A stretch of 28,200 nucleotides of DNA from a virus: positions 1 through 28,200 of the IMG/VR virus record IMGVR_UViG_3300009103_000127. One strand, written 5' to 3'. This document shows positions 1,879 through 28,085 of the stretch, piece after piece. The first letter of the stretch is position 1, and every line of letters starts with the position of its first letter. A model generated the notes under the pieces. That model did no database searches. It worked only from the letters and a program-made list of their open reading frames with translations, and was not told the DNA's origin. The position numbers were made by a program, and so were the translations under genes.

Positions 1879-2595
1879 TTAAGTTGGTACATCTGTTGAA
1901 TAAGTAGCTCCATTTATTGTTCCGTTATTGCTACCTGCTGAATCTATAGCAGTTGTACCTGATCCCTCTTCGAATTGCCACCAACCTAATGGGGATAGAC
2001 TTGATAAGTTTCCAGGAGTTCCCCCGTTATAAATGGTTGATATATTTGAAGATTGATCAGAGTCCCAAATCGCTAAATCATCCAAATTACCGTCTAAGTA
2101 ATATACTGTACCACCAACATCTGCACCTATTGAATCCATTGTAAATCCACCCGCTCCACTTGTACCTAAATCTGCAAAGGATGCTCCATCAACCCACCAA
2201 GTAAGAGTAGAACCTGTTTTAGTAATTGCTAAATGATGCCAATTTCCTGTTCCAAATATTTGTGGCACACCACCTGAATTAGCCACTAATATAGATGTAT
2301 GTCCGTTTACTTTTGCATATATAACCTCATTAAGGTTGTAATAAATAAAATTATTTGCATCTCCATATACAAAAGCACCATTTGGGTCGCCACTTCCTAA
2401 ATTTACGGCTTTAAGCCATATTGAAACTGTTAAATCGTTTCCGCTTGTTGTAAAACTTGAGACCGTTACAGAATCGTCTATCCCATCAAAATTTAATGAA
2501 TAAATATCTGCAAATGACGAGCCAGCAGGAATCTCAGGTATTCCTCGAGTACCTGCTCCTCTTAGCATTGATGGTGTGTAGGTGGTTGTTGCCAT
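1879..2595 (-). CDS. LamG/concanavalin A-like domain protein, copy 2 (probable tail fibre or receptor-binding protein)
   Basis: The 238-residue protein carries one LamG-like jelly-roll domain from about residue 30. Typical elements are 'YSLNFDGIDDSVTV', 'TVSIWLKA', 'GNWHHLAITKTGSTLTWWVDG', 'GNLDDLAIWD' and 'GWWQFEEGSGTTAIDSAG'. Such domains often bind sugars and are common on phage adhesins. The N-terminus MATTTYTPSMLRGAGTRG has no signal peptide. It follows its paralogue at 2608-3336 by 12 bases. First and last thirds are near-identical between the two and the middle differs, which points to duplication followed by divergence of a binding surface. It is last in a unit that starts with a late-type motif near 3693. 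Assignment to the virion surface is inferred from domain and context. Confidence 0.8.
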   Translation of the reverse strand: MATTTYTPSMLRGAGTRGIPEIPAGSSFADIYSLNFDGIDDSVTVSSFTTSGNDLTVSIWLKAVNLGSGDPNGAFVYGDANNFIYYNLNEVIYAKVNGHTSILVANSGGVPQIFGTGNWHHLAITKTGSTLTWWVDGASFADLGTSGAGGFTMDSIGADVGGTVYYLDGNLDDLAIWDSDQSSNISTIYNGGTPGNLSSLSPLGWWQFEEGSGTTAIDSAGSNNGTINGATYSTDVPT

Positions 2596-2607
2596 TATTT
2601 AATTTCT

Positions 2608-3336
2608 TTATGTTGGTACATCTGTTGAATAAGTAGCTCCATTAATAGTACCATTGTTTCCACCTGTTCCAGAATCTATAGCTGTTGTACCTGACCCTTC
2701 TTCGAATTGATACCAAGCCACAGGACTTAATGAAGTTAAATCACTCGGACCAGATGAAATTGTAGTTATTTGACTAGTTGTTAAAACACTATTAAATGCT
2801 GAAACTTCATCAATGTTACCTATAAAAAATTGGGTATTAGTTGGGTAATTGGTACATAAATATCTAAATTTAGTATCACCGCTAAAAGTACCACCTGAAG
2901 CAGTTGGTGAACCTTGGTCAACACCGTCCAAATATAATTTCGCAGTTGTTAAAGTATCTCTAACTATTATAATATTATGCCAATTTGTGTTTGCTATTGG
3001 TGTACTGCTCCATGCAAGATAACCACCTGCTATTCTAAAAAATACTCTTGGGTTTGGTGTGCTGAATTTTATAGCTAACAAATAATCAAATGAATATGAA
3101 TTTTCACCTAATATTGTATAATTTTTTGCTGTTACTATTGCTGTTGCATCTGGTTTTATCCATAAACTAATAGTACTTGTTGTTCCTAAATTGTGTTGTG
3201 TTAAATCTACATAATCGTCTATTCCATCAAAATCCATTGAGTAGGTATTTTCATAAGATGACCCAGCAGGCACTTCAGGTACTCCCCGAGTACCTGCTCC
3301 TCTTAGCATTGATGGTGTGAATATTGTTGTTGCCAT
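2608..3336 (-). CDS. LamG/concanavalin A-like domain protein, copy 1 (probable tail fibre or receptor-binding protein)
   Basis: The 242-residue paralogue of the next gene has the same layout: a conserved N-terminus (MATTIFTPSMLRGAGTRGVP), 'YSMDFDGIDDYVDL', 'TISLWIKPD', 'TNWHNIIIVRD', 'AKLYLDGVDQG', 'FIGNIDEVSAFNSVLT' and the shared C-terminus 'WYQFEEGSGTTAIDSGTGGNNG'. These are LamG/concanavalin A-like lectin signatures. The start ATG overlaps the stop of the 113-residue gene by one base (TAATG), which suggests coupled translation. The likely role is adhesion to a host glycan as a fibre or decoration protein, inferred from the fold and from lying in a late-type unit. Confidence 0.8.
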   Translation of the reverse strand: MATTIFTPSMLRGAGTRGVPEVPAGSSYENTYSMDFDGIDDYVDLTQHNLGTTSTISLWIKPDATAIVTAKNYTILGENSYSFDYLLAIKFSTPNPRVFFRIAGGYLAWSSTPIANTNWHNIIIVRDTLTTAKLYLDGVDQGSPTASGGTFSGDTKFRYLCTNYPTNTQFFIGNIDEVSAFNSVLTTSQITTISSGPSDLTSLSPVAWYQFEEGSGTTAIDSGTGGNNGTINGATYSTDVPT

Positions 3337-3677
3337 TAAGTAGTCAATATTAGAGTAAATTCACCTGTTCCTCTAAATATTGATTCTGAAACTGGAATTG
3401 ATGATCCTGGTGTAAAATCAACAGATGAGGTGCCTTCAGGTATTACCATTCCCCAATGAAATCCTCCATTTACTGTTCCTACTCCATTTGTAACTCCGGT
3501 TGTCCAATATGCTACTATTGGGTTTGTAACTGAACTTGTTAAGTTTGAAAATGTTGAACCTGAAAAGTATGATATTTGAGCTGATGAAGTTGGAAAATAT
3601 CCATCTGTTTCTCTTGGGATAAGTTCGTGAACAAAATATGCTGAGCCTGAAGGATTGTGGAAGGTATAATTAGCCAT
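3336..3677 (-). CDS. Unknown virion-like protein upstream of the LamG genes
   Basis: This 113-residue protein is rich in Ser, Thr, Gly and aromatics (for example 'NPSGSAYFVHELIPRETDGYF' and 'GGFHWGMVIPEGTSSVDFTPGSS') with no charged helices, so it looks all-beta, as phage tail or fibre proteins often are. It has no signal peptide or membrane segment. I do not recognise a family. It opens the LamG unit, with a TATTTATA late-type core 15 bases before its ATG, and its stop overlaps the next start by one base. A small fibre, fibre-anchor or decoration protein is the simplest guess. Confidence 0.72.
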   Translation of the reverse strand: MANYTFHNPSGSAYFVHELIPRETDGYFPTSSAQISYFSGSTFSNLTSSVTNPIVAYWTTGVTNGVGTVNGGFHWGMVIPEGTSSVDFTPGSSIPVSESIFRGTGEFTLILTT

Positions 3678-5734: not shown

Positions 5735-6439
5735 TTAAACTAATTTTTTCTCTTCTACCTCTTGTATCATTTGAAAATGAATCTTAGCAATTCGATCTCT
5801 TCCTTCTTCACTTAAAAGATACTTATGACAATTATCGTAGTTTGTCATAAAGAAGTTTTCACTAAGTATAGCGGGCATAACTGTTTTTCTTAATACCCAA
5901 AAATTTGCTTCTTTGTCTGAGTCTCCATCTCTAGTATCTTTTCTCATATACTCATCTGGAAATTCAGCACTGGATTTTTCAAATAAAATTTGGGCTATTT
6001 TATCTGATTTGGTTTCACCTTCTGAAGTATAGACTGACCATCCGTTTGCTTGTTCTTCACCAAAACCATTTGCATGAACAGAAACATAAATGCAAGGTTT
6101 ACCATCTTTATCTCTTTGTTGGCGGTAAATATCGTTTGCTTTATCTGTTCTTTCAGATAAGGGAACATCTTCTTGAGTATCTACTAAATTAACACAATCA
6201 ATTCCTTTATCATTACATAATTTCATTAATCTATCTACAATAGCTCTATTAAATTCTCCTTCATATAAAATAGAACCATCGGGCCATACAGGTGATCTTT
6301 TACCAGATGTTTGGTATACACCATCTATAATACCACCATGACCATTATCAAAAATCCATAAATAATTTGAATCTTTTTTTTCATTAACACTAACTTCAAA
6401 AGTTGTGTTACAATTAGGACAAGTTATTTCTTTCCCCAT
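5735..6439 (-). CDS. Endolysin: N-acetylmuramoyl-L-alanine amidase (Amidase_3 family)
   Basis: This enzyme cleaves the bond between MurNAc and the stem peptide in peptidoglycan. The catalytic domain runs from about residue 26 to 230. The zinc ligands are visible as H34 (DNGHGG), E62 (YEGEFN) and H122 (SVHAN), with the catalytic glutamate E194 in 'AILSENFFMTN'. An N-terminal CPNC pair (residues 7-10) looks like half of a zinc ribbon. There is no signal peptide, so a holin should be needed for release. I chose the ATG at 6439 (234 residues): the only upstream option in frame is a TTG at 6457, which lengthens the overlap with the holin candidate from 26 to 44 bases. It follows the holin candidate and precedes the coiled-coil membrane gene. 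Confidence 0.88.
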   Translation of the reverse strand: MGKEITCPNCNTTFEVSVNEKKDSNYLWIFDNGHGGIIDGVYQTSGKRSPVWPDGSILYEGEFNRAIVDRLMKLCNDKGIDCVNLVDTQEDVPLSERTDKANDIYRQQRDKDGKPCIYVSVHANGFGEEQANGWSVYTSEGETKSDKIAQILFEKSSAEFPDEYMRKDTRDGDSDKEANFWVLRKTVMPAILSENFFMTNYDNCHKYLLSEEGRDRIAKIHFQMIQEVEEKKLV

Positions 6440-6662
6440 TATTTTTAGGTTTTGCAAATGCTTTAATAGTTGATACTCCTAACATTGTAGCTGAGAATAT
6501 AAGCATTGAGTTAAATAAGTTTTCGTTTACTGTAAACCAATGGAAACCATCTCCTATAAAAGCAAGGCATACAAGTATACCTGAGATAATTCCTAGGGTT
6601 TTTTTAGATGAATATTTATCATCTCTTTTATCTTCTGTGAATATGTCGCTTACAAATTTCAT
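6414..6662 (-). CDS. Candidate holin, two transmembrane segments
   Basis: The 82-residue protein has a charged N-terminus (MKFVSDIFTEDKRDDKYSSKK), a hydrophobic span at about 23-43 (LGIISGILVCLAFIGDGFHWF), a short loop, a second span at about 50-70 (LFNSMLIFSATMLGVSTIKAF) and a basic tail (KPKNNGERNN). This two-span form with both ends inside is typical of class II holins. It lies directly upstream of the amidase and overlaps its start. The gene pair and the late-type motif that heads the unit support a lysis role. Family identity cannot be proved by eye because holins are so diverse. Confidence 0.72.
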   Translation of the reverse strand: MKFVSDIFTEDKRDDKYSSKKTLGIISGILVCLAFIGDGFHWFTVNENLFNSMLIFSATMLGVSTIKAFAKPKNNGERNNLS

Positions 6663-6681: not shown

Positions 6682-7077
6682 TTATACTCTAAATGGTCCC
6701 AGGTCTTTAGTTAATTTATAAAATGTATCTCCTTCTTCACGACTTATAGTTCCAATACGTGTTCCAGGTTCTACTATCTCAGGTTTGGTTTTACTAAGAA
6801 CTATTAAAAGATTCTTTTTAAATTCTTCAGGACTGCCCTCAATTGAATAATGATCACCTAAATAATCAATAATCATATTTGCTTTATACTCATTACTATA
6901 ATCAGAAGGATAATTGAGTGCCTTTAATATCTCTTCATTATCTTCATCATCTAAAACATCAATACCCGATCTTTTCATTAATCGTGCAATATCTCCTAGT
7001 TTACTTTGGTTAATATCTTCATTTAATACTTTGGAGATTTCCTCTTTGATAATTTTTTTTAATTGCGATTTTTTCAT
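6682..7077 (-). CDS. Leader-family protein 4: shared N-terminal peptide plus unique C-terminal part
   Basis: The 131-residue protein begins MKKSQLKKIIKEEISKVLNE, nearly the same 20 residues as three genes just upstream. The remainder (DINQSKLGDIARLMKRSGIDVLDDEDNEE and on) is unrelated to theirs and looks largely helical and acidic, ending GTISREEGDTFYKLTKDLGPFRV. The leader is an amphipathic Lys/Glu/Ile helix ending in LNE, which fits the (L/I)-x-E sites cut by T4-type prohead proteases. The gene begins 2 bases after the preceding stop and precedes the holin candidate by 19 bases. A co-packaged internal head protein is my preferred hypothesis. The function of the unique part is unknown. Confidence 0.75.
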   Translation of the reverse strand: MKKSQLKKIIKEEISKVLNEDINQSKLGDIARLMKRSGIDVLDDEDNEEILKALNYPSDYSNEYKANMIIDYLGDHYSIEGSPEEFKKNLLIVLSKTKPEIVEPGTRIGTISREEGDTFYKLTKDLGPFRV

Positions 7078-7079
7078 TT

Positions 7080-7319
7080 TTATTTTTTTAAAGTACCAAG
7101 AAAATAATTTAATTCATTCAATGCACGATTTGCAATCTCACCCATTCTATTAGATTCCTCTGAATTCAACCCATATTCTCTTTTAATTTTTTCTCTTAAT
7201 ACATTATACCCATTAAGTATCTTATCTGTTGAACTATATACAGCTTTTACATCTATATCTTCATTTAATGTATTAGATATTTCTTCCTTAATCATTTTTC
7301 TTAATTCTGATTTTTTCAT
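7080..7319 (-). CDS. Leader-family protein 3: shared N-terminal peptide plus unique C-terminal part
   Basis: The ATG at 7317-7319 gives 79 residues starting MKKSELRKMIKEEISNTLNE. An upstream in-frame ATG at 7343 would add eight residues (MGGINKNK). I prefer the inner start because it overlaps the previous stop as ATGA and aligns the leader with its three relatives. The unique part (from DIDVKAVYSSTDKILNGY) is helical and charged, with 'YGLNSEESNRMGEIANRALNEL'. No domain is recognised. The leader again ends in L-N-E, a possible prohead protease site. Confidence 0.75.
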   Translation of the reverse strand: MKKSELRKMIKEEISNTLNEDIDVKAVYSSTDKILNGYNVLREKIKREYGLNSEESNRMGEIANRALNELNYFLGTLKK

Positions 7320-7597
7320 TTTATTTTTATTAATGCCCCCCAACTATAGGTGGTAATTTTTGGATCATATCCTGCTCTACTTAATGAAGTTCTTCCAATT
7401 TTTAAAGCATCGTAATAGTCTTGTTCTGAGTCATAGTCTTTTATTTGGACTTCTGCTACCCCATCATCACCAAATATAAACCCGGTTTCGGATTGTCTAT
7501 ACATTCCGTCTCCTATATTCTCTAAAGATTCAAAACTTTCATTTAGTACTTTAGATATTTCTTCTTTGATAATTTTTCTTAGTTCGGATTTTTTCAT
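7316..7597 (-). CDS. Leader-family protein 2: shared N-terminal peptide plus unique C-terminal part
   Basis: The 93-residue protein begins MKKSELRKIIKEEISKVLNE, the family's clearest copy. After the leader comes a compact-looking mixed domain ('SLENIGDGMYRQSETGFIFG', 'DDGVAEVQIKDYDSEQDYYDALKIG', 'YSWGALIKIK') with alternating beta-like segments, unlike the helical bodies of its neighbours. Its start follows the previous stop directly (TAAATG) and its stop overlaps the next start (ATGA). The function is unknown. Under the head-protein hypothesis the leader would be removed after LNE. Confidence 0.75.
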   Translation of the reverse strand: MKKSELRKIIKEEISKVLNESFESLENIGDGMYRQSETGFIFGDDGVAEVQIKDYDSEQDYYDALKIGRTSLSRAGYDPKITTYSWGALIKIK

Positions 7598-7873
7598 TTA
7601 AAAGTTTTTTTCATTTTTTAATTCTTTTTTAATGGAATTTATTAGTGATGATAAATATAATTTACCAAAATATTTTTCTTCTAAAACATATGCTATGGCA
7701 GTACCTAATGAAGTAGGTGATACACTATACTTGTCTACATTATCTGCTATAATTTGAGCCATTCTATAGGCATTTTCTTCCTCCATAGTAGCTCTAGCAG
7801 TTCTTGCAGTTTCATCACTAACTTCTTTTAAAATTTCTTCTTTGATTATTTTTTTTAGTTCTGATCTTTTCAT
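7598..7873 (-). CDS. Leader-family protein 1: shared N-terminal peptide plus unique C-terminal part
   Basis: The 91-residue protein opens the unit. It begins MKRSELKKIIKEEILKEVSD, the most divergent leader: it lacks the final LNE but keeps IKEE. The body is helical ('ETARTARATMEEENAYRMAQIIADNVDKYS', 'LGTAIAYVLEEKYFG', 'SLINSIKKELKNEKNF') and no family is recognised. A full copy of the late-type motif lies 9 bases before its ATG, between it and the end of nrdA, so these genes appear to be read with virion and lysis genes rather than with the replication operon. Confidence 0.75.
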   Translation of the reverse strand: MKRSELKKIIKEEILKEVSDETARTARATMEEENAYRMAQIIADNVDKYSVSPTSLGTAIAYVLEEKYFGKLYLSSLINSIKKELKNEKNF

Positions 7874-7882
7874 TTTAACTAA

Positions 7883-7899
7883 TGTTTGTTATAAATACT
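7883..7899 (-). promoter_or_regulatory. Late-type promoter motif before the leader-protein and lysis unit
   Basis: The coding strand reads AGTATTTATAACAAACA, ending 9 bases before the ATG at 7873. It matches the copies at 24129, 26483 and 28093, all before structural genes, and marks the switch from the replication operon (nrdA ends at 7901). Confidence 0.55.
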
Positions 7900-7900
7900 A

Positions 7901-9610
7901 TTAACCATCACAAGACACACATTCTGCCATTCTTGAACCTAAATCACCTTTAATTACTGAATCCGTACGAAGATAATATAATGTTTTAATTCCAAGCTTC
8001 CAGGATTCCATATGTACTTGATTTATCCATTTAGGAGAATCAGTAGGGTCAAAACTTAAATTTAACGATTGAGTTTGGTCTATATATTTCTGACGGATGG
8101 CGGCTTGTTGAACTAATCCTAATTGATTAATTTCAGGAAATGTTAAAAATACTTCTTTCTCATCCTCCGATAGGATTTTACTTGGTAAGTTTTGAACTGA
8201 TCCATTATCTACTAAAATTTGATCCCATACTTTTTCAGTATTGTATCCTTTTTCTTCTAAGACCTTAACTAATTCAGGGTTTTTAACTATAAAAGTACCT
8301 TTAGCCCCATTAAAAGTATAAACATTTGCCGGTTGTGGTTCAATTCCTGCTGAACAGCTGTTAATTCTAGAATTAGATACTGTGGGGGCAATAGCTAACA
8401 AATGTGTGTTTCTCATTCCTGTTCCTCTACACCATAATGGTTCACCATATTCTTCTGCTAATTGTCTAGAAGCAGATTCTGCTTTTAATTTTATTTGAGA
8501 AAACACTGTATGTGTCCAAGCTGTTGAAGATATAGAATTAAATGGTAAATCCTTTTGTTGTAAAAATGTATGCCAACCCATTACACCTAAACCTAATGCT
8601 CTACCCTTTTTAGCATGTCTATGAGTTCTAATCATAGATTCTTTACCATTTGTTTTTTGGATAAATTCTTCCATTACCCCATCTAAAAAGTAAACGGCAG
8701 TTTCAACTACATCTGTATCTTTCCATTCATCATACTTAGCCAAATTTAAACTAGATAAGCAACAAATAAATGAATGTTCTTCATCTGTATGGAGTGTAAT
8801 CTCAGTACAAATATTTGTCATTGAAACATTAAGGTTATTCATTAGATAAGCCATTGGGTTATCCTTATTAACATTATCAGTATACATTATATAGGGTTCA
8901 CCTGTTTCAACTCTTGATTTTAAAATTTCAAGCCACGTGTTCATAGCTTCAGTATCTCTATCATGAAGTTTTCTCATGAAATTGTCATCAATAGCTACAC
9001 ATTGATGTAAATTTAAACATTGTCTATTTGGATCTCCTTTAGGTCTTCTAATTTGAAGATATTCTTCTATATCCCCATGATTAATATTTAAATTAACTGA
9101 TGCTGCTCCTCTTCTTACTGATCCTTGATTAGTAGCAATTATAGTTGAGTCATAAATTTTAGCCCAAGGAACTACACCTTCACTTTTACCATTTCCTCTA
9201 ATAGGAGTTCCTCTTTCTCTAATTCTAGATAAACTAATTCCAACACCACCACCTTGGGAAGTTAATTTCATTAACTCAGCATTTGTTAAACCAATTCCTC
9301 GAATTGAATCAGGGGTATCAACCCCAAAACAAGAAATAGGTAAGCCTCTATCTGTCCCTGTATTTGATAAAACAGGAGAAGCTAATCCGATCCAACCATT
9401 CCAAATATATTTAAAAAATTTAGATTCTAAATCAGGTCTATTTAACCTAAAAGCAACTGCCCCTGCTACCCTACGATATGCTTTTTTAGGTGTTTCCCCA
9501 GGTAAAAGATATCCTTTTGAAATTGTAGATAAAGCTACTTCATCAAAAAATTCAGGGTAATCTTTACCCCTTTCCCACTGTGTATAATCTGCTATTAAAT
9601 TTCCATCCAT
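7901..9610 (-). CDS. nrdA: Ribonucleoside-diphosphate reductase, alpha (catalytic) subunit, class I
   Basis: This subunit reduces ribonucleoside diphosphates to deoxy forms together with NrdB. The visible active site has C94 (PISCFG), N266-x-C268-x-E270 (NICTE, the radical cysteine set) and C283/C284 as the redox partner. It also has the radical-path tyrosines Y545-Y546 (TLYYLRT) and a C-terminal cysteine pair C564/C567 (ECVSCDG). At 569 residues it is shorter than E. coli NrdA (761) and lacks an N-terminal ATP-cone, so it should not be shut off by dATP in the usual way. It follows nrdB by 3 bases and is last in the replication operon. Confidence 0.95.
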   Translation of the reverse strand: MDGNLIADYTQWERGKDYPEFFDEVALSTISKGYLLPGETPKKAYRRVAGAVAFRLNRPDLESKFFKYIWNGWIGLASPVLSNTGTDRGLPISCFGVDTPDSIRGIGLTNAELMKLTSQGGGVGISLSRIRERGTPIRGNGKSEGVVPWAKIYDSTIIATNQGSVRRGAASVNLNINHGDIEEYLQIRRPKGDPNRQCLNLHQCVAIDDNFMRKLHDRDTEAMNTWLEILKSRVETGEPYIMYTDNVNKDNPMAYLMNNLNVSMTNICTEITLHTDEEHSFICCLSSLNLAKYDEWKDTDVVETAVYFLDGVMEEFIQKTNGKESMIRTHRHAKKGRALGLGVMGWHTFLQQKDLPFNSISSTAWTHTVFSQIKLKAESASRQLAEEYGEPLWCRGTGMRNTHLLAIAPTVSNSRINSCSAGIEPQPANVYTFNGAKGTFIVKNPELVKVLEEKGYNTEKVWDQILVDNGSVQNLPSKILSEDEKEVFLTFPEINQLGLVQQAAIRQKYIDQTQSLNLSFDPTDSPKWINQVHMESWKLGIKTLYYLRTDSVIKGDLGSRMAECVSCDG

Positions 9611-24150: not shown

Positions 24151-26475
24151 TTATTGTATTTCACGTTCTGCTGTATTAATTCCTTGTCCTACTTCATTTC
24201 CACCCATTTCTATTACTGTGGATTTATTTGCAATTTGTTTAAGTAAACCTAACATTTCACTGTTGTCTTCTTTGTTTCCTCCTCCTCCACCACCAAGATT
24301 GGTTCCTGCTATAATTGAATCTTTTTTGTCTAATTGAATTGATCCTTTAGGACCAGATACTACCATTTCACCTCCTGGGCCTATTACGCCATCATTCATG
24401 TAAGAATATCCTAATGCCGCTATTCCAGCTGCAGCAGCAATCCCTAAAATGGGTCCTAAAAATGCGTATGCTTTCATAGAAGCTATTCCTATTTCTCTTC
24501 CTAGAGATCCTAATTGCATTGCTTTTTTCTGGGCTTCAAGGATTTTTTCTCTATTCTTCCACATATAAATAGCTTTTTGGATACCTTCAATACTTTTAGT
24601 TACCATTTGATAAGTTTTAAGGGAGAGTATTATAATACCAAACCATTTTGCTAGTGTTATAGCACTCTTAACCATAGCCATCATTTCCTTCTTATTTTTT
24701 AACATACTTGCTGCTATCTCTTTTGCATTGTCCCTTTCTTTTTTCTTTGTTTGTTCAATTTCTTCAGCGAGTGAAAGGCTTTCTAACTGTTGTTGTAAAT
24801 TTTCATTCCCTAATTCAGTAAATATTTCCTTTTCTTGTCTTTTTTTCTCTTCTAATAAAGCTTGTTTTTCTTCTTCTGTTGTAGCTGCTGCAATTTGGGC
24901 ATTAATTTCTGATAAATCTTCTTTGTATTGGTTATAGGCACCTGTAATATCTGTTACCCCATCACCAAAAGTTGCTTGCAAAGCATTTTGTTCTTCTTGT
25001 TTCATGATAATTTCAGCTAATTGGTCTCTTGTTAAACCTATAGCTGCCGCTGCTGATTGTTGGGCTAGAACATTATCCGTTTTAAAAGCGTTTAAAATAG
25101 CTTCCTGCTTCATTAACTCTTCTGTTAATCCTTTTTGGTCCCCTGTTAAAGCATATTGTCTAGCTTTTTCAAGGTTAATATCTTGACCTAACATTAACTC
25201 TGCTTCTAATTCTTTTTGAATTGAAGATTCAAAATCTAATAAACTATCTCCTATACCTGCTATTGTATCCATTTCTGCCCCGAATTTTTGGGCTGTCATA
25301 ACAGTTTTGGCTAACTCAGCTACATTACCTTTAGTAAAAAGATGAATACTTTTAGAGGCGTTAGCAATTTTTTCCATAACCTTATTTACATTCAAAACCA
25401 TTTTATTTTGTATGTTGAATTTTGCTACAGTTTTATGAAGAGTTTTCAATTGATCCTTCATAGTTTTTTGCCCCTTAATCTGTTTTTTAACTAAAAACCC
25501 CATAGATTTATCTGAAAGTCCAGTTCGCATTTGAATATGGGCAAAATCTGATGATATTTCTTGACTAAATTTTCCACCAGTTTGGAATCTTTCATTTAAT
25601 TTATCTTGGGCAGCTGCTATATCTTCTCCTGCTAGTAACATACCTTTAGCATCTTTAGCCATTTTACGATATTCCGACCCTAAATCTATGGCTGTTTGAT
25701 AAGAAACCCCTAAATTTTTAGCAGTTTTACCAGCAGTTTCATCAACTTCCCAAAATGCATCCTTAATCTCTTTCCCAATGAAGGTAAGTATAGCTAAGGG
25801 ACCAAAAGCTTGGGCTAAATTTTTACCTATAGTTTTTGCCATTGTTCCAGCAACTCTAAGTTTGGTTGCTATTGTAGCTGAGGCCTCTCCTCCATTAGTT
25901 AATTCAGCCGATAATTCCCTTCCTTCTTTAACTGCTTCATCAAGGCCCATTTTATCTCCTAAATCACCTAAACCTGCTTTCTTTAAAATTTTTCCCATAC
26001 CCGAAAAGGCTGCTCCCGCTAATCCTACTCCTTTTTGGATATTATTAGCTCTACTGGCCATATCAGCCATAACTTCCTTATTGTCCGTATTAACCTTAAG
26101 TTGTTCATCATAAAGATCTAATAATTTTTGTTCTGCCGTTGTTGCTGCTCTATTTTGAGAATCTATTTTACTTTTAAGTTGTCGTTGTTCAACAAGAAGT
26201 TTTGCTTGAGCTTTAGAGTATTTATTTTGTTCTTTAGCTAAATCTGCCGCAGTAGCAGTACCAGATACAATATCATCTATCATAGCTGCTTGATTAGTAA
26301 GAGAAGTACCTATATCTCTAAAAGCTTTAGTAGCTTGGTTGGCATTAGTACCTATTCCAAAAACTGCTTTTGCTGCTGCTTTTGCTTCATCAGTAAAATC
26401 CCTAGTGGCGAATAATAATTCGTCCATAGTTCCTTTAGCTTCTTCTACTTCCTTTTTAAATTTACCTTTAGCCAT
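24151..26475 (-). CDS. Tail tape measure protein
   Basis: The tape measure sets tail length and is ejected ahead of DNA. The 774-residue protein has long Ala/Lys/Glu-rich helical stretches (about 1-160 and 480-590), Gly/Ala-rich segments around 160-230, and hydrophobic spans at about 600-625 ('AITLAKWFGIIILSLKTYQMV') and 665-695 ('YAFLGPILGIAAAAGIAALGYSYM'). The C-terminus has a Gly-rich patch. This composition and the position directly after the tail-assembly gene and before baseplate genes are typical. Spans like these may help pore formation in the inner membrane. It has its own late-type motif 7 bases upstream. Confidence 0.82.
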   Translation of the reverse strand: MAKGKFKKEVEEAKGTMDELLFATRDFTDEAKAAAKAVFGIGTNANQATKAFRDIGTSLTNQAAMIDDIVSGTATAADLAKEQNKYSKAQAKLLVEQRQLKSKIDSQNRAATTAEQKLLDLYDEQLKVNTDNKEVMADMASRANNIQKGVGLAGAAFSGMGKILKKAGLGDLGDKMGLDEAVKEGRELSAELTNGGEASATIATKLRVAGTMAKTIGKNLAQAFGPLAILTFIGKEIKDAFWEVDETAGKTAKNLGVSYQTAIDLGSEYRKMAKDAKGMLLAGEDIAAAQDKLNERFQTGGKFSQEISSDFAHIQMRTGLSDKSMGFLVKKQIKGQKTMKDQLKTLHKTVAKFNIQNKMVLNVNKVMEKIANASKSIHLFTKGNVAELAKTVMTAQKFGAEMDTIAGIGDSLLDFESSIQKELEAELMLGQDINLEKARQYALTGDQKGLTEELMKQEAILNAFKTDNVLAQQSAAAAIGLTRDQLAEIIMKQEEQNALQATFGDGVTDITGAYNQYKEDLSEINAQIAAATTEEEKQALLEEKKRQEKEIFTELGNENLQQQLESLSLAEEIEQTKKKERDNAKEIAASMLKNKKEMMAMVKSAITLAKWFGIIILSLKTYQMVTKSIEGIQKAIYMWKNREKILEAQKKAMQLGSLGREIGIASMKAYAFLGPILGIAAAAGIAALGYSYMNDGVIGPGGEMVVSGPKGSIQLDKKDSIIAGTNLGGGGGGNKEDNSEMLGLLKQIANKSTVIEMGGNEVGQGINTAEREIQ

Positions 26476-27596: not shown

Positions 27597-28085
27597 TTAG
27601 AAATTTAATACTGCGTAGTCAATAGCTACTTCCATATCTATCATCTTAGCTTCATCTTCAGTGTCCCAATTATAATCACCAAAATTAGCACTTGTAATAA
27701 ATGCTCCTTTTAATATCCATTCTGAGACTATGTCTCCTACAGGTCCTAAAACATTTACTGTTAGATCTTTTTTATAAAAATCAGAATAACCATCTCTACC
27801 TGTTACTGATTCATGATGTAATCTTACCCATTCCATTACTGCTTGAGCACCTGAGGGGGTTATAGGATCAAATAACTGTAGGGTAACATTTTCCCATTTT
27901 GATTTACCTTTAACTTTTCTTTCTACATTAATATGGTTTAGGGTTACTACACCTTGGGTCATAGTTATAGCACTTACTCCTTTAATCATGTAAGATGGAA
28001 AACCATCTACATAAAGAATAAACCTGTTAGCTTGTTTTGGTTCAAATGCTGTGAAAAATATTGAATTGGCGTCTATTACTCCCAT
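27597..28085 (-). CDS. gp19: Tail tube protein (T4 gp19-like)
   Basis: Tail tube subunits stack as hexamers to form the inner tube through which DNA passes. The 162-residue length is almost the same as T4 gp19 (163). The fold signature is visible: 'FEPKQANRFILYVDGFPSYMIKGVSA' near the N-terminus, 'VTLNHINVERKVKGKSKWENVTLQLFDPITPSGAQAVMEWVRLHHESVTGRDGYSDFYKKDLTVNVLGP' in the middle, and 'WILKGAFITSANFGDYNWDTEDEAKMIDMEVAIDYAVL' at the end. It follows the sheath gene, as in T4 (18 then 19). A full late-type motif lies upstream and a strong hairpin terminator downstream, which fits independent high expression. Confidence 0.92.
   Translation of the reverse strand: MGVIDANSIFFTAFEPKQANRFILYVDGFPSYMIKGVSAITMTQGVVTLNHINVERKVKGKSKWENVTLQLFDPITPSGAQAVMEWVRLHHESVTGRDGYSDFYKKDLTVNVLGPVGDIVSEWILKGAFITSANFGDYNWDTEDEAKMIDMEVAIDYAVLNF

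Follow-up and report, generated by a model that had tools for sequence, protein, structure and literature searches.

A common 20-residue N-terminal leader on unrelated small proteins: a candidate head-targeting propeptide of T4-like phages

Results and Discussion

A tandem cassette of four leader-bearing genes

The window, by which we mean the whole 28.2-kb stretch of a viral record that was analyzed, contains on its minus strand a tandem of four small genes, the products of which share a common N-terminal leader of 20 residues with the consensus MKKSELRQIIKEEI-x-K-V-L-N-E. The cassette and its neighborhood include the following features:

7901-9610, minus strand: NrdA, large subunit of ribonucleotide reductase (PHROG E-value 1.4e-159), the upstream neighbor and a fixed flank of the cassette site
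7889-7897, minus strand: promoter-like motif TATTTATAA, 15 bases before leader gene 1
7873-7598, minus strand: leader gene 1, 91 aa, leader at 7823-7873, predicted cut after LKE at residue 17
7597-7316, minus strand: leader gene 2, 93 aa, leader at 7538-7597, predicted cut after LNE at residue 20
7319-7080, minus strand: leader gene 3, 79 aa, leader at 7260-7319, predicted cut after LNE at residue 20
7077-6682, minus strand: leader gene 4, 131 aa, leader at 7018-7077, predicted cut after LNE at residue 20
6414-6662, minus strand: membrane-protein-like gene, 82 aa, a downstream neighbor, holin-like by position and appearance only
5735-6442, minus strand: endolysin-like gene (PHROG endolysin, E-value 1.3e-27), a downstream neighbor and a fixed flank of the cassette site

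All four genes are present on the minus strand at the starts given by an earlier sequence-only reading (7873, 7597, 7319 and 7077), which had also described a common leader on unlike bodies, the tetrapeptide IKEE in all four leaders, and an LNE end in three of them. Each of these descriptions was borne out. Every pair of the four leaders is identical at 10-12 of the 13 positions from residue 2 to residue 14; chance likeness was rejected, as the worst pair never exceeded 5 of 13 in 20,000 within-leader residue shuffles. Among the bodies, five of the six pairs have no BLASTP match at E<=1, and the sixth pair gives a weak match (E 0.14). The LNE end stands at residue 20 in genes 2, 3 and 4, and the remaining leader, that of gene 1, reads ...EEILKEVSD, which places its [LIV]xE site, LKE, at residue 17 and not at 20, a minor deviation from the earlier description. 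The ATG of gene 3 overlaps the stop codon of gene 2.

Searches of family libraries were uninformative for these proteins: genes 1 and 2 have no match in PHROGs or Pfam, gene 3 has only weak matches in both, and the Pfam matches of gene 4 are weak and below the cut-off. The 82-aa gene at 6414-6662 likewise has only a weak PHROG match, to a family of unknown function. Gene 2 has 17 relatives in viral contigs, of which two, from the same phage, match over the whole protein; in the other 15 the best segment lies inside residues 1-41.

The leader DNA is also alike among the four copies, as had been pointed out before, yet many silent changes separate them. Over 201 within-locus paralogue pairs, the mismatch in codons 2-14 amounts to 0.167, 0.071 and 0.301 at the first, second and third codon positions, respectively, which points to selection on the leader protein. 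An assembly artefact was rejected, since the locus lies inside stretches that are at least 99.9% identical in two further contigs (G034 and G032); this identity confirms the assembly and gives no evolutionary information. Elsewhere in the window (1879-3336) there are two tandem paralogues of 238 and 242 aa with near-identical starts, whose DNA shows patches of 82-84% identity.

The proposal of a late-type motif before the first gene holds in part: the motif is real (TATTTATAA at 7897-7889), but it differs from the T4 late promoter motif, TATAAATA. Within the window, TATTTATA also occurs upstream of the genes starting at 28085 (tail tube), 27497, 26475, 24113 and 3677, and at four further places, none of them just before a listed gene. 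It is found upstream of 50 of 200 leader genes, as compared with 4.0 for stretches taken at random from these loci. TATTTAT precedes 8 of 9 tail-tube genes versus none of 46 replication genes; directly upstream of capsid, gp22-like and protease genes it was seen in 0 of 19, 1 of 13 and 1 of 20 cases, respectively.

Distribution of the leader among viruses

Viral contigs were scanned with a degenerate pattern for leader residues 1-14, giving at least 120 stretches. The earlier suggestion that related phages be searched for more leader genes proved productive: a stricter rule yields at least 202 distinct leader proteins (the four of the window and at least one truncated copy included), enriched near the protease gene as described below, and a looser rule applied to the same loci gives at least 204 leader ORFs. 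The 196 bodies of at least 25 residues fall into at least 166 BLASTP clusters, 142 of them singletons, among the matches listed. A relaxed pattern was found in all 42 large records that were searched whole, with 1-10 copies in each, and its reversed control in none of the 42; these records had been chosen because they bear the leader. Cellular genomes, searched with a stricter pattern than the viral contigs, gave three stretches, all in one metagenome bin.

The carriers are viruses from uncultured sources and are T4-like where this can be judged. Among isolates, the Flavobacterium phage immuto has three leader proteins (immuto35A_175, 176 and 190), which are annotated as 'hypothetical protein', with other genes of this phage annotated as 'structural protein' (the basis of these names is not given). 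A tblastn search of INPHARED with the leader returned a single weak match, LR756508; the same search missed the immuto leaders, so it cannot prove absence from other genomes. In LR756508, a 484-kb uncultured phage, leader-like ORFs that vary in their starts form a run (L171, 8568-10889) upstream of gp22-like and capsid genes. Leader fragments were absent from the openly licensed papers searched by text, and we found no report of the leader in such papers, in part as judged by title and the start of the abstract.

A conserved [LIV]xE site at the leader end

In T4, the prohead protease gp21 cleaves its substrates after L/I-x-E (PMC9026906). An E-to-D change at this site in T4 IPIII hampers processing, while targeting remains possible (PMC9026906). 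Leader residues 15-20 lay outside the search pattern. Among the matches listed, residue 18 is Leu in 104 of 202 proteins and residue 20 is Glu in 122 of 202, with residue 19 variable; an [LIV]xE with its Glu at residue 20 is present in 108 of 197 leader proteins, as compared with 0-5 of 197 for each position from 21 to 45. When indels are allowed for (Glu at 15-27), the site is found in 168 of 197 leaders versus 23 of 189 in a control stretch (Glu at 45-57), leaving 29 of 197 leaders without it in that range. In the three immuto proteins no terminal [LIV]xE is present, and their sole sites are at residues 12, 8 and 12. The residue that follows the site (n=145) is enriched 3.2-fold for Ala and 2.8-fold for Asn.

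A similar site is kept in capsid proteins: an [LIV]xE near residue 60 is conserved in all 22 aligned sequences, of which three belong to named phages and 19 to protease regions; the remaining three of the 22 regions yielded none. The T4 gp23 sequence at this position is FLTEAEIGG.

Exchange of leaders between bodies

By an automatic rule, 19 of 193 leader-containing body families also hold proteins of another class, although some of these mixed families are due to mis-called starts, missed leader variants or over-merged clusters. We inspected 11 exchange pairs, picked by eye; in four of them the BLAST alignment extends into leader residues 1-5. Six pairs have their terminal [LIV]xE sites aligned with each other: L024/L160 (LNE/GTRS versus LTE/GTRS), L041/L066 (IIGE/IGEATSNPY versus LLKE/IGEGTAKPY), L041/L197, L020/L067 (LNE/AAPVHADFGKY versus ITE/EKTIHADFGKY), L162/L135 (LTE/GQ versus LSE/GQ) and L034/L105. 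The leaders of these six pairs are unlike, with 3-7 of the first 20 residues identical. In two further pairs, the internal IxE at residue 12 is the only site that coincides, and in the last three pairs no site does. To judge from these alignments, coinciding last sites on unlike leaders would be hard to explain unless the functional unit of the leader ends there.

Some of these genes carry further short leader types, in L197, L198, L071, L142, L173 and other loci: MIKLxxILxE is present in 33 ORFs from 25 body families, KKYLxENKLLKE in 7 ORFs and RMQxLAGIITE in 14 ORFs. The x-E end of the first two was part of the rule that found them; more generally, the search rules partly predetermine the [LIV]xE end of the other leader types.

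Turnover of the cassette in a close relative

Comparison of the window with a close relative, L196, reveals conserved flanks (85.6% DNA identity in NrdA and 98.8% in the lysis block) around a changed cassette, in which window genes 1 and 2 are absent and different leader genes stand instead. The body of window gene 3 is near-identical in this relative, and gene 4 has a relative there that differs in its C-terminal part. A 79-aa gene of L196 has an upstream region, including the promoter motif, that matches window gene 1 in 23 of 30 bases, and a body start that matches window gene 3 in 49 of the first 50 bases, which locates the join at or close to the leader. In a more distant relative, L199, one leader gene is found near NrdA and genes resembling the lysis genes.

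Two further observations concern L196 and were made by eye. A 175-aa gene (2127-2654) between NrdA and the leader cassette is homing endonuclease-like, and the relative of window gene 4 (3001-3567) continues into a stretch resembling a worn leader, IIKEETSNKLKED, which gives the impression of a fusion of two leader proteins.

Association with the head protease and capsid genes

A gp21-type S77 protease (PF03420) was identified in 22 of the 42 large leader-bearing records, including 11 of the 12 largest, and a gp23-type capsid gene in exactly the same 22; an HK97-type capsid (PF05065) was found in none of the 42. Neither the S77 protease nor the gp23 capsid gene was detected in the window or in the longer contigs of the same phage (G032 and G034), all of which are fragments. 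The co-occurrence of leader and protease, together with the gp21/gp23 concordance, partly reflects the T4-like nature of the carriers. As a background for the protease, 24 contigs obtained with a random 17-base pattern gave one partial S77 match below the cut-off; only four of these contigs exceed 37.9 kb, which makes for a weak control.

The position of the leader genes says more than this concordance. In 21 of the 22 protease-bearing records (G006 was left out), 25 of the 91 leader sites listed are found no more than 5 kb from the protease, as compared with 10.1 expected; when positions were rotated 20,000 times with clustering preserved, 50 rotations gave a count at least as high. Among the matches listed, eight of the 21 records have a leader site within this distance and 13 have none. 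The gene order around the protease resembles that of T4 (21, 22, 23), with variable cassettes in between, several of them with leaders. In several phages the leader genes stand among core genes, next to gp21 and gp22. The gp22-like label rests on sequence appearance and position, as Pfam gave no significant match.

In two of the loci examined, L158 (from G027) and L161 (from G035), the S77 protease gene has two and three in-frame TGA codons, respectively, and the L158 capsid gene has one. Most of these TGA codons fall at Trp positions of relatives, and this alignment-based evidence suggests that TGA is read as Trp in both.

Composition of the bodies and family searches

Cysteine is strongly depleted in the leader bodies, a feature that they share with head proteins. 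For body families of 60-300 aa, counted after residue 20, 157 of 167 are cysteine-free versus 96.3 (sd 6.2; the highest of 2000 draws was 117) for other ORFs from the same loci, matched in length. Per 1000 residues, cysteine amounts to 1.33 in the leader bodies, 10.03 in the other ORFs, 1.56 in capsid proteins and 0.47 in gp22-like proteins; the set of other ORFs is a mixture of structural, non-structural and possibly spurious ones. Families with the other leader types are mostly cysteine-free as well (16/19, 8/10 and 6/6), and T4 IPI-III contain no cysteine. In one 49-kb stretch of T4, with sets selected by ourselves, 21 virion proteins have 5.07 cysteines per 1000 residues versus 13.01 in 25 others, and a published compilation of phage proteins gives 0.66% cysteine for virion versus 1.05% for non-virion proteins (PMC7072630).

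The median net charge per 100 residues is +1.41 for the leader bodies versus -0.52 for the other ORFs. Two of the four window proteins have a net negative charge, and the other leader types are not basic (medians of 0.0, -8.91 and -13.61 per 100).

Family searches used 110 relatives, one per body cluster (110 of 158 listed, the 48 shortest having been dropped). At most five of the 110 were matched in Pfam, at least 105 having no match there at E<=0.001, and at most five were matched in PHROGs. PADLOC, a library of defence and not of counter-defence proteins, gave single, mostly weak matches to the 110 bodies (best E-value 5.3e-05). AlphaFold models of genes 2 and 4 (mean pLDDT of 53.1 and 47.5) were too poor for a fold search; in these two low-confidence models the leader is helical, over residues 3-24 and 3-41.

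Some other genes of this phage were tentatively assigned by eye. A partial QueC-like gene of the queuosine pathway lies at the window edge (1-731), and the contig G034 has a QueC/QueD-like stretch (24589-26130) as well as adjacent GroES-like and GroEL-like genes (33752-35741). If the QueC/QueD assignment is right, DNA modification by this phage is possible and would accord with the carriage of anti-restriction proteins.

Comparison with known systems

Of the features by which T4-type internal proteins may be recognized, the window genes have two, i) a short common N-terminal leader on unrelated small proteins, and ii) a leader end that conforms to the prohead protease motif (L/I)-x-E (three LNE at residue 20 and one LKE at residue 17). 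The T4 proteins IPI-III, with their capsid-targeting sequence (CTS), are comparable in both respects, the second through the cleavage rule of gp21 (PMC9026906), and also in the absence of cysteine; after residue 10 their net charge is positive. The genomic settings are alike too, as ipIII, with ipII next to it, adjoins the lysozyme gene e in T4 and the window cassette adjoins the endolysin-like gene. In contrast, the leader of IPII and IPIII has 10 residues (MKTYQEFIAE), and compared by eye it shows no likeness to the window leader beyond the M-K start and the x-E end. Because of these differences in leader length and sequence, we did not file the window proteins as T4 internal proteins. The scale differs as well: T4 has three internal proteins and related phages at least 10 (PMC12373910), as compared with at least 166 body clusters for the window-type leader. 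T4 Ip1-3 have only the leader in common, and each of them blocks a GmrSD restriction enzyme (PMC12373910), which makes the leader bodies good candidates for new anti-defence proteins.

Comparable systems are known in other phages. In the phiKZ-like phage SPN3US, the diverged inner-head proteins gp53 and gp54 have an identical 15-residue start, and head propeptides are cut by a gp21-type protease after a short motif ending in Glu; however, several propeptides of SPN3US are longer than 100 residues, cleavage follows A-x-E (S/A-x-E in phiKZ), and the two proteins gp53 and gp54 are paralogues of each other (PMC5694885). DarA and Hdf of P1 are head-associated proteins linked to the countering of restriction (PMC12810830), although P1 is a phage of a different type.

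Interpretation and alternative explanations

We consider it probable that the leader is a cleavable head-targeting propeptide of T4-like phages, similar to the CTS in its working and unlike it in sequence; that the proteins enter the head, are cleaved there, are ejected and counter host defence is inference. The sequence-only reading had proposed that the leader directs unlike payloads into the head, and this idea gains computational support from the site, the gp21/gp23 concordance, the proximity to the protease, the exchange of leaders, the cysteine depletion and the promoter-like motif, with virion presence, cleavage, injection and an anti-host role remaining inference.

The alternative that deserves most attention accepts that the leader targets the prohead and is cut there, and assigns the bodies to head building, as core, scaffold or DNA-condensing proteins that are either degraded or kept in the head. 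The fact that in several phages the leader genes lie within groups of core genes, next to gp21 and gp22, is compatible with this role, the slightly basic bodies would suit DNA packing, and a morphogenetic role has been suggested for T4 IPIII (PMC9026906). Essential parts of morphogenesis would, however, not be expected to form at least 166 clusters among 196 bodies or to turn over between close relatives, and the blocking of a restriction enzyme by each of the T4 proteins Ip1, Ip2 and Ip3 (PMC12373910) speaks for another function; on balance we regard head building as unlikely, though not to be dismissed.

Explanations that leave the head out fare worse. The leader could be an amphipathic helix that stays uncut and docks the proteins on a membrane, a polymerase or one another, as the helical prediction in the two low-confidence models and the lack of a terminal site in the three immuto leaders and in 29 of 197 others would allow, but docking leaves unexplained the L-x-E at 18-20 with its variable middle residue, the coinciding [LIV]xE ends of unlike leaders in six of 11 pairs, and a cysteine depletion like that of capsid and core proteins, and we hold it to be improbable. 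The conserved stretch might even be a DNA or RNA element, such as a recombination site or a translation enhancer, with the peptide being incidental. Although the leader DNA of paralogues is alike and the join in L196 falls at the leader, mismatches are some four times as frequent at third as at second codon positions and the peptide is kept in relatives with different codons, so that we give this explanation very little credence; leader DNA that helps recombination as a side effect may still play a part.

Under the interpretation as a head-targeting propeptide of T4-like phages, the 20-residue leader would recruit to the prohead small late proteins that are unrelated apart from it. There, the gp21-type (S77) protease would cut after the terminal [LIV]xE, or perhaps in some members after the internal IxE at residue 12, and free the body in the head. 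The bodies would then stay in the capsid and probably be delivered with the DNA into the next host, like the T4 internal proteins. Genes would join or leave the set by recombination that puts a body behind the leader and promoter, and in this way a fixed site beside the lysis genes would come to hold a changing cassette. The leader, its spread, the [LIV]xE end, the gp21/gp23 concordance, the protease proximity, the exchange, the cysteine depletion, the motif and the turnover in one relative are read directly from genomic data, whereas injection and action on host defence are inferred by analogy with T4.

A broader possibility, for which we see close to an even chance and which is advanced only tentatively, is that uncultured T4-like phages have a general system for loading proteins into the head, in which several unlike leaders ending in [LIV]xE (the 20-residue MKKSEL type, the 10-residue MIKLxxILxE type, and two or more further types) can replace one another on hundreds of rapidly changing cargo families, with the leader DNA serving as the hinge for swaps.

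Conclusions

Only for few model phages is it known what enters the cell along with the DNA. A cargo tag recognizable from sequence would allow one to list candidate injected effectors from metagenomes, in the present case at least 166 body clusters. Should the general loading system prove true, the leader would provide a bait for a large unexplored set of phage-carried proteins. The tag could also serve to load chosen proteins into the heads of leader-bearing phages.
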